Shown: piece after piece, positions 40,360 to 43,664 of the stretch
Numbering within the stretch: position 1 is the stretch's first letter
Layout of the letters: each line of letters starts with the position of its first letter
The notes under the pieces: model-generated
Seen by the model: the letters and a program-made list of their open reading frames with translations, nothing else
Told to the model about the DNA's origin: nothing
Databases searched by the model: none
Made by a program: the position numbers and the translations under genes
Source of the DNA: Pseudorhodobacter sp. PARRP1
GTDB lineage: Bacteria; Pseudomonadota; Alphaproteobacteria; Rhodobacterales; Rhodobacteraceae
Reading direction: 5' to 3'
Length of the DNA: 64,000 nt
Assembly: GCA_002256245.1 (NCBI GenBank)
Contig: NKIU01000001.1
Span: 186,001-250,000 of the forward strand

Positions 40360-41703
40360 TTAAACAGCCGCCTGAACCGCGCCGACGATCTCCTCGACGA
40401 CCGTCCGCAGCATCGCCTCATCCTCACATTCCGCCATCACCCGGATCAGCGGTTCGGTGCCGGATTTGCGGATCAGGATGCGGCCCTTGCCCTTGATCTC
40501 GGCCTCTTTGGCCGCAATCACCGCTTTCACCGCCGACGCTTTCAAAGGCTCCAGCCCCGGCGCGTAACGGATGTTTTTCAGCATCTGCGGCACGGTTTCA
40601 AACTGTTTGACCAAAGCGCTGGCCGCTTTGCCCGACCGCGCCATTTCGGCCAGAAACTGCAACCCCGCGATCAACCCATCCCCCGTGGTGGCATAGTCGG
40701 TCATCACGATATGGCCCGATTGCTCGCCGCCCAGATTGAACCCACCGCGCCGCATCGCCTCGACCACGTAACGGTCGCCAACCGCCGTGCGTTCCAACCG
40801 CAGGCCGCGCCCGGTCATGAACCGCTCCAGCCCCAGGTTCGACATCACGGTGGCGACCAAAGTGCCGCCCTGCAACCGCCCCTCATCCGCCCAACGCCCT
40901 GCCAGCAGCGCCATGATCTGATCGCCATCCGCCACGCTGCCGGACTCGTCAAGGATCATCACCCGGTCGGCATCACCGTCCAGACTGATACCCACATGCG
41001 CCCCATGCGCCACCACAGCCTCGGCCGCGGTTTGGGTGTAGGTCGAGCCACAGCGCTGGTTGATGTTCTTGCCGTTCGGACTGACGCCGACCGGGATCAC
41101 CTCGGCCCCCAACTCCCACAGCACTTCGGGTGCGGCCTTGTAGGCGGCACCATTGGCGCAGTCTATCACCACTTTCAGGCCATCCAGCCGCAGCCCCGCC
41201 GGGAAGGTGGTTTTCACAAACTCCTGATACCGCCCCACCGCATCGTCGATCCGTTTGGCACGTCCGATGTTTTCGGGCGCGGCAAGGTTCGGATCGGCCA
41301 TCAGCATCGCCTCAATCTCGGCCTCGGCGGCATCTGACAGTTTGAAGCCATCCGGGCCGAAAAACTTGATACCGTTGTCGTGGTGCGGGTTGTGCGAGGC
41401 GCTGATCATCACCCCCAGATCGGCGCGCATGGATCGCGTCAGGAACCCCACCGCAGGCGTTGGCACGGGGCCGAGCAACAGCACGCTCATCCCGGTGCTC
41501 GTCAACCCCGCCGTCAGCGCGTTTTCCAGCATGTAACCCGACAGCCGGGTGTCCTTGCCGATCACCACGCGGTGCGCCGTGGCACCGTCACGACGAAAGA
41601 ACTCTCCCGCCGCTGCCCCCAGTTTCAGCGCCATTTCGGCCGTCATCGGATAGGTGTTGGCGGTGCCGCGCACGCCATCAGTGCCAAAAAGTTTGCGACT
41701 CAT
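40360..41703 (-). CDS. glmM: Phosphoglucosamine mutase
   Basis: A 447-aa enzyme that converts glucosamine-6-phosphate to glucosamine-1-phosphate for UDP-GlcNAc and cell wall synthesis. The N-terminus is [20 protein letters not shown]. The phosphoserine loop is [20 protein letters not shown] (about residues 100-119), the metal loop [16 protein letters not shown], and the sugar loop [33 protein letters not shown] is the phosphate loop. I start at MSRKLFGT, with AGGAGG upstream. The ATG overlaps the folP stop. Confidence 0.98.
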
Positions 41704-42710
41704 GCCGCGCCTCCTGTTGTTGCGGCCTGCCACAAGGACAAGGCCTGCCGGGTTTCGGCCACATCATGCACGCGGATCATCTGCATCCCCTGCGCCACCC
41801 CCGCCAAAGCGACAGCCAGACTGCCGGGCAGACGTTTCTGCGCATCACTTTCGGCGCTGATCGTGCCGATAAATCGCTTGCGCGATGCGCCCAGCAGCAC
41901 CGGCACGCCAAGATTGTGAAACAGCGACAGCCGCGCCAGCAGGATAAGGTTGTGCTGCAGCGTCTTGCCAAAGCCGATCCCGGGATCAACCGCCAGCTTT
42001 GCGCGCGGAATGCCAGCAGCCTCGGCCTCGGCGAGACGGGCGGCAAGGGCATCATACACATCGAGCAAAACATCGTCGTAATGCGGATCGTTCTGCATTG
42101 TCTGCGGTGTGGCAATCGAGTGCATCAGGATCACCGGGCAGCCAGAGCCCGCCGCCGCCGCCGCCATCGCCGGATCAAATTGCAGCGCCGTCACGTCATT
42201 CAGGATCGTGGCCCCCGCCGCGAAGGCGGCCTTGGCCACCGAAGTCTTGCGGGTGTCGATCGAGATCGGCACATCAAGACCACCGTCACGCAGCGCCGCA
42301 ATCACCGGGGCGGTGCGCGCGGCTTCTTCGGCAGCCTCAACCTCGGCCGCGCCGGGACGGGTGCTTTCGCCGCCGATGTCCAGAATATCGGCACCCGCCG
42401 CCATTTTCCGCGCCTGCATCAGCGCGGCTTCAGGGCGCAGGAACAGGCCACCGTCCGAGAAACTGTCAGGCGTGACGTTAAGAATACCCATGATGCGGGG
42501 GCGGTCCATCGACAGGCCGCCAAAATCCGGGCGACGGGTCGCAAGGCGGTCGCGGGTTTCGCCATCCAGATCGGCGACAGCGACAAGGCGCGGGGCCTCG
42601 TCACGCTGGATGACTTCGACATGCGAGAACCAGCACCAGCCGCCCGCCAGCGGCAAAGCGCCGGTGGGGCGGGCGGGGTCGGTCATCGGAATGGGGCGTA
42701 TGTAGGTCAT
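41700..42710 (-). CDS. folP: Dihydropteroate synthase
   Basis: A 336-aa folate enzyme that joins p-aminobenzoate to dihydropterin pyrophosphate; it is the sulfonamide target. Signatures: [60 protein letters not shown] and the C-terminal [11 protein letters not shown]. About 70 N-terminal residues precede the TIM barrel, a usual feature in this order. It lies between folB (45 bp upstream) and glmM (ATGA overlap), so the operon joins folate and amino-sugar synthesis. Confidence 0.96.
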
Positions 42711-42755: not shown

Positions 42756-43664
42756 TCAGGCCCGTTCGACCCGCACGCGGCTTCCCGCCGGAAGTGCAAC
42801 ATCGCCGTGAACCACCAAACGCTCGGCCGCCATCAACTCGGCCAACCACAAAGCCAGCGCTACAGGTTCGCGGCTGTGCGGGCCATCGACAGCATCCAGC
42901 ACCAGTTTGGATGGTGCCCAGACCACAAGCTGTCCGCGTTTGATGGCCCAATCAATCTCGGTGCGCGTGGCCATCACCACGCAGCGCGGATCGCGCGCGG
43001 CCAGAACCCAGGCGTTCTGCTCAATGGCCAGCAGGTCCACGCGACGCTGCGTGGGCTTATGCCCGGTTTGCGGGCGGGCCATATCCGGCAGACCAACAGT
43101 CAGGATCACCGGGCGGCCCTGCGCCTGCCAATGGTCCAACCGCGCCGCCAGATCGCCCGCCATCACCGCCGGATTGTCGAGAAACACCACCAATGGATGC
43201 ACGGCGGCTTCCTCGCCATCGTGGCCGACCACCTTCACCGCATCACCTGCACGGCTGCGGACAATTTCGACACCCAACTTATAGGGGCCGACATCCAGCT
43301 TTTCGATCCGCACGAACACCCGCATCGCCTGTGGCTCGGCAAGGATGCGCTCGGCCAGCCGCTCGGCCAGGGTTTCCAGCAGATTGAGGCGTTCGGCGGC
43401 GAGTTCAGTATCAATCGCCTCGGTCAGGGTGTCATAGGACAGGATCAGATCAACATCATCGTTCAGCGGCTGCGCGGCCGGTCGCACCTCGACCACGATG
43501 TTGAACAGCACGCGCTGGGTGTGGCCCCGCTCTTTCTGGAACGCGCCGATCTCGACCGCGACGATATGGTCGCGCAGGCTGATGCGGTCACGCGGATCGG
43601 CGGTGGCCGAGGCGATGGAACGCTCCTCCGGGTGGGCGAAGGCTTGGGCGATGTCGCTGGTCAT
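42756..43664 (-). CDS. folB: Dihydroneopterin aldolase fused to an amino-acid-kinase-like domain
   Basis: A 302-aa protein about 180 residues longer than simple FolB. Residues 28-140 are the aldolase: RISLRDHIVAVEIGAFQKER with the catalytic Glu, LSYDTLTEAIDTELA, LNLLETLAERLAERIL and VFVRIEKLDVGP with the Lys. From about 148 the sequence resembles an amino-acid-kinase (MfnE/aspartokinase-like) fold: AARLDHWQAQGRPVILTVG, QRRVDLLAIEQNAWVLA and LVVWAPSKLV. The glycine-rich phosphate motif is not visible, so the domain may be inactive. The gene heads folB-folP-glmM. Confidence 0.85.
   Translation of the reverse strand: MTSDIAQAFAHPEERSIASATADPRDRISLRDHIVAVEIGAFQKERGHTQRVLFNIVVEVRPAAQPLNDDVDLILSYDTLTEAIDTELAAERLNLLETLAERLAERILAEPQAMRVFVRIEKLDVGPYKLGVEIVRSRAGDAVKVVGHDGEEAAVHPLVVFLDNPAVMAGDLAARLDHWQAQGRPVILTVGLPDMARPQTGHKPTQRRVDLLAIEQNAWVLAARDPRCVVMATRTEIDWAIKRGQLVVWAPSKLVLDAVDGPHSREPVALALWLAELMAAERLVVHGDVALPAGSRVRVERA

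Follow-up and report, generated by a model that had tools for sequence, protein, structure and literature searches.

A dihydroneopterin aldolase of Rhodobacterales carries a degenerate MfnE-type amino acid kinase domain, likely kept for a non-catalytic role

The analyzed window was a 64,000-nucleotide stretch of the genome of Pseudorhodobacter sp. PARRP1 (contig NKIU01000001.1, positions 186,001 to 250,000). Translation of the window identified a folB gene on the minus strand that reads from an ATG start at 43664 down to 42756 and encodes a protein of 302 amino acids, confirming the position given in a sequence-only reading of the same DNA. The downstream genes on this strand were folP and then glmM (Table 1). 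The order folB-folP-glmM has been reported in Rhodobacterales (PMC6335563), and was also present at the locus of a distant relative (L193).

Table 1. Coordinates in the window of the fused gene, its parts and the neighboring genes
Feature	Position	Strand	Details and basis
Fused gene, FolB + pseudo-amino-acid-kinase	42756..43664	-	302 aa, stop codon included; translation, homologues
FolB (dihydroneopterin aldolase) domain, residues 26-138	43251..43589	-	PF02152 and invariant putative active-site residues
Fast-evolving linker, residues 139-155	43200..43250	-	pN/pS 0.56
Degenerate amino acid kinase domain (predicted; MfnE-type N-lobe), residues 156-302	42759..43199	-	AlphaFold2, Foldseek, hhalign
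Lost K-x-GG phosphate-loop site, F161-L162-D163-N164 in place of K-x-G-G	43173..43184	-	K 0/125, GG pair 0/125
Constrained core, residues 205-275 (RRVDLLAIEQNAW ... RTEIDW ... VWAPSK ... ALWLAE)	42840..43052	-	pN/pS 0.183, conservation
Fusion-specific motif R234-T235-E236	42957..42965	-	R234, E236 ~100% of 125 fusions; not conserved in stand-alone kinases
folP (dihydropteroate synthase)	41700..42710	-	next gene downstream, same strand; ORF list
glmM (phosphoglucosamine mutase)	40360..41733	-	after folP; ORF list

FolB is a housekeeping enzyme and is considered a drug target, and the Rhodobacterales are an abundant aquatic and marine order. The Pfam FolB profile (PF02152) covered residues 28-133 of the fused protein with an E value of 5.7e-18 and a score of 65.9 bits, above the curated cut-off of 31.8, which placed the N-terminal half in this family. 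E45, Y77, E97 and K122, which in our alignment correspond to the active-site Glu, Tyr, Glu and Lys of FolB and are therefore putative active-site residues, were invariant in the alignment of all 112 relatives. The N-terminal half thus has the sequence of a complete dihydroneopterin aldolase. Since the genome has no other copy of FolB, this half very probably synthesizes the folate precursor.

The intact FolB domain (approximately residues 26-138) was followed by about 150 further residues, so that the extra domain noticed in the sequence-only reading is real. Scans with Pfam and NCBIfam recognized nothing in the fused protein beyond the FolB half. A sequence search of the PDB retrieved only FolB relatives with the N-terminal half, and a marginal match to RlmH with the tail. 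Weak matches to RNase_II S1 and to triphosphoribosyl-dephospho-CoA synthase were rejected as products of chance or composition.

A class-wide search with the domain alone led to two loci (L117 and L118) in which an ordinary folB was followed by a separate kinase gene whose phosphate loop, VVKLGGSL, is intact, and then by a flavoprotein gene closest to dihydromethanopterin reductase. This kinase gene matched AA_kinase at 5.4e-13, and its closest NCBIfam family was MfnE (9.7e-21). Further genes of the clusters encoded a DHPS-like protein, MfnB, MfnF, PQQ methanol/ethanol dehydrogenase and PqqE. In the H4MPT/methylofuran clusters of methylotrophic Alphaproteobacteria, folB is thus adjoined head-to-tail by the gene of an intact kinase of the MfnE type, and the same arrangement was found in the named records of Phyllobacterium zundukense (with fae and mch), Azospirillum ramasamyi and A. 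argentinense. Orf21 has been described as the bacterial MfnE homologue within the "archaeal-like" cluster (PMC8141765).

Two other features of these clusters were noted. Two intact MfnE-type kinases (L207:9432-10067 in NZ_CP104969.1, and L208:7429-8064) are named "dihydroneopterin aldolase" by NCBI; the name has probably spread from the Rhodobacterales fusion, the existence of which may account for the misnaming. Moreover, in methylofuran clusters of Rhizobium, Sinorhizobium and Phyllobacterium, MfnB apparently has a FolB joined to its C-terminus (L207:8263-9435, L208:6263-7432, and ORFs in L209, L231 and L232), which makes a second, different fusion of FolB within the methylofuran pathway.

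Profile-profile comparison by hhalign aligned the fusion domain with the MfnE-type kinases of these cassettes over 137-153 columns, with probabilities of 97.6-98.6% and E values of 2.6e-12 to 3.7e-14, while controls with the profile reversed or its columns shuffled (eight shuffles) all gave less than 1%. A single MfnE-type kinase scored 95.5% against the fusion profile, and ArgB, AspK and PyrH of the same genome scored less than 0.5% each. In the reverse search, an MfnE-type profile matched 149 of 198 Rhodobacteraceae genomes; viewed collectively, the matching frames had the length of the fusion gene, and they lay at the fusion locus where compared. No separate intact MfnE was noticed among them.

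AlphaFold2 modeling of the domain alone, based on a 70-sequence alignment, gave a pLDDT of 91.1 and a pTM of 0.88. When this model was compared with the PDB by Foldseek, ranks 1-9 were all proteins of the amino acid kinase (AAK) fold, including UMP kinase, aspartokinases, glutamate 5-kinase and molybdenum storage protein (E 5e-5 to 4e-3, probability 1.00), and acetylglutamate kinase appeared at rank 11. The TM-scores were moderate (about 0.5-0.6), which is due in part to the loss of most of the C-lobe. These results support a predicted AAK fold for the C-terminal domain and, from the profiles, a kinship to MfnE-type kinases specifically, not to other AAK proteins. Weak HMM hits to RlmH raised the alternative of a domain without kinship to AAK and similar to this SPOUT methyltransferase, which we regard as hardly conceivable; these matches (E 0.015-0.065) reached 14 bits against a cut-off of 141 and spanned only about 35-60 residues, and both Foldseek and hhalign pointed to AAK.

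The AA_kinase HMM (PF00696), which had been proposed as a check of the AAK assignment, found no match in the window protein, nor at a loose threshold in 70 close members, and the assignment therefore rests on the profile-profile and fold evidence. The MfnE equivalog HMM (NF040622) likewise did not match the fusion domain, although its cut-off is 300 and even the cassette kinases score only 74-85. Despite the missed AA_kinase profile, the earlier guesses of an AAK fold and of a likeness to MfnE both stood, since AAK is the fold predicted for the domain and conservation extends to many of its residues. The motifs quoted in their favor (RRVDLLAIEQNAWVLA, VVWAPSKL and LALWLAELMAAERLVV) were present and fell on the best-conserved columns.

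We compared 125 fusion domains, which are related to one another and do not represent independent events, with 11 stand-alone kinases. The lysine of K-x-GG, the GG pair, the aspartate of TSD and the lysine of VKS were retained in 0/125 fusions and in 11/11 kinases. Beyond the VKS position only about 15-20 residues were left in the fusions, compared with about 75 in L117, and the nucleotide-binding C-lobe was almost absent. The domain thus lacks what a catalytic AAK protein has, namely the K-x-GG phosphate loop, the GGG loop, the TSD aspartate, the VKS lysine and the C-terminal nucleotide-binding lobe, and we infer that it is a pseudokinase that would have lost kinase activity. The sequence-only reading had already recognized the domain as degenerate and devoid of the phosphate loop, which agrees with these counts; its further suggestion of an undescribed kinase step acting on a small molecule is contradicted by the loss of the defining catalytic residues in 125/125 fusions together with that of the C-lobe.

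Relatives of the fused gene were found in 169 of 199 sampled Rhodobacteraceae genomes and in 196 of 198 sampled Rhodobacterales genomes, most of them aligning over the full length and some weaker ones mainly over FolB. With this distribution, the extra domain is no chance extension of the reading frame and no product of read-through. Some diverged members (L177, L180 and L186) had a FolB of the fusion type without the kinase-like domain, and the persistence of FolB in L180 and L186 indicates that certain lineages can do without the domain.

Several unusual loci were also seen in the survey. Two Rhodobacteraceae genomes (G128 and G161) had an apparent FolB-FolK fusion in place of the usual FolB (L174 and L175), and no FolB match whatsoever was obtained in 12 of 26 atypical Rhodobacteraceae genomes checked (G014, G029, G040, G059 and G065 among these). 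In G131, two FolB-pseudokinase genes lay in tandem (L188, 946-1998 and 2002-2994); the second copy, L188:946-1998, has lost the active-site stretch EIGAF..ERG and may be an inactive paralogue. A fusion-type folB on a plasmid (L210:4956-6295 in CP031587.1, Paracoccaceae bacterium La 6) adjoined folA, encoding dihydrofolate reductase.

The pN/pS ratio was 0.193 for FolB, 0.56 for the linker and 0.29 for the C-terminal domain as a whole, and fell to 0.183 in the core of residues 205-275. The low values indicated that the C-terminal domain is under selection for its protein sequence; the tail is under purifying selection, which in the core is as strong as in FolB. It is accordingly very improbable that the domain is a non-functional leftover hitch-hiking on FolB, as the loss of the catalytic residues and the lineages without the domain might suggest, given that purifying selection on the core equals that on FolB and that nearly all Rhodobacterales have retained the domain.

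Conservation within the fusions combined inherited and new elements. The structural positions W249 (125/125), P251 (124/125) and W273 (125/125) were kept, and residues missing from the kinases had become fixed; besides R234 and E236, which were present in even the most divergent of the fusions examined, these were W239, A218 and W219 (98-99%). The fusion-specific and essentially invariant R234 and E236 would be compatible with an enzyme of altered chemistry centered on the R-T-E motif. We nevertheless consider such an enzyme very improbable, as the nucleotide lobe and all the catalytic residues of the kinase are gone, and Pfam and NCBIfam recognize no other cofactor motif. Loss of catalysis accompanied by a gain of new constraint is the pattern that a repurposed pseudokinase should show.

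As for its origin, we propose that the C-terminal half descends from an amino acid kinase of the MfnE/Orf21 type, acting in the phosphorylation of a methylofuran precursor. Neighboring folB and kinase genes would have been joined in an ancestor of the Rhodobacterales. The two genes overlap by 4 bases in Azospirillum and Phyllobacterium, and with such overlaps in several species a small indel could fuse them. In the order proposed here, the kinase part would then have lost its phosphate loop, catalytic aspartate, lysines and most of the nucleotide-binding lobe, and the remaining acceptor-side lobe may have been retained for a non-catalytic role. No FolB fused to a complete kinase was seen, and thus no intermediate fixes the order of fusion and decay.

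Phylogenetic analyses were applied to both halves. A first FolB tree (69 rows) was under-resolved. When plasmid-borne cassettes were added, a second tree placed the fusion FolBs beside the cassette FolBs of Rhizobium and Phyllobacterium with support of 97/87, but the AU test did not reject an alternative placement (p 0.37), so that derivation of the FolB half from a cassette of an H4MPT cluster is suggested and not established. In the tree of the kinase domain, the fusions were separate from the cassettes, and no sister group was found.

Taken together, we consider it likely that the housekeeping FolB of Rhodobacterales is fused to an MfnE-derived pseudokinase that has been retained in a non-catalytic capacity. 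Its function is most likely structural or regulatory, and would be exerted through the conserved core around the helix of residues 203-224 and the new R-x-E motif. The domain may pack on the FolB oligomer, bind a ligand, or dock a partner such as FolP. The full-length AlphaFold2 model had a pLDDT of 77.5 and a pTM of 0.59, the latter meaning that no defined packing between the two domains is predicted.

Two specific forms of this explanation were weighed. One is a ligand-free scaffold or oligomerization module that, for example, docks FolP or stabilizes the FolB ring. In its favor, folP directly follows the fused gene in a conserved order, the core is conserved without catalytic residues, and the domain is missing in some lineages while FolB stays; adjacency of folate genes is common, and we judge the chances of a scaffold to be somewhat short of even. 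The other is an allosteric sensor, a form of the ligand regulation suggested in the sequence-only reading, in which the former acceptor site would bind a pterin, an amino acid or a furan phosphate and tune FolB. Aspartokinase and acetylglutamate kinase, both AAK enzymes, are classic examples of regulated enzymes, and the invariant charged positions R208, R234 and E236 are for the most part retained even in deeply diverged fusions, beyond the needs of folding. A protein interface would explain this conservation just as well, and no rigid packing is predicted that would link the two domains, which leaves a sensor rather unlikely. Equally doubtful is the wider proposal that a kinase of the methylofuran pathway was captured by fusion and now serves throughout Rhodobacterales as a ligand-binding regulatory domain of FolB; if true, the sensor controlling folate synthesis in this order would have come from a different C1 coenzyme pathway.

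Returning to the pseudokinase kept for a structural or regulatory role, the finding concerns a half of the Rhodobacterales FolB that had been unannotated until now. The fusion connects two C1-coenzyme pathways, those of folate and of H4MPT/methylofuran. It also offers a clear case of a pseudokinase of the metabolic, non-protein kind, and the intact relatives beside folB allow comparison. No paper on a FolB-pseudokinase fusion was found in the open-licence literature, and the protein is apparently an undescribed fusion of known families.

Among the known systems, the closest is MfnE/Orf21, the [5-(aminomethyl)furan-3-yl]methyl phosphate kinase of methanofuran/methylofuran biosynthesis (NF040622; PMC8141765). 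The fusion domain resembles it in the profile-profile homology of the N-lobe, in the retained W249, P251 and W273, and in that MfnE-type genes neighbor folB in H4MPT clusters. It differs in having lost the catalytic residues along with almost the entire nucleotide-binding lobe, in being joined to FolB, and in escaping the MfnE HMM. With the AAK superfamily (PF00696; UMP kinase, aspartokinase, acetylglutamate kinase) it shares the predicted fold and the top Foldseek matches; unlike the members of that family it is shortened, falls under the HMM thresholds and has no phosphate loop. The N-terminal half is like other FolB proteins (PF02152) in its conserved putative active-site residues, but the solved FolB chains found by sequence are single-domain proteins of about 120-155 amino acids. 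In the FolB-FolK fusions, as we read their sequences, the C-terminus of FolB is likewise joined to another pterin-related protein. FolK, however, has another fold and is the active enzyme of the next step, whereas the partner here would be a dead kinase from another coenzyme pathway.
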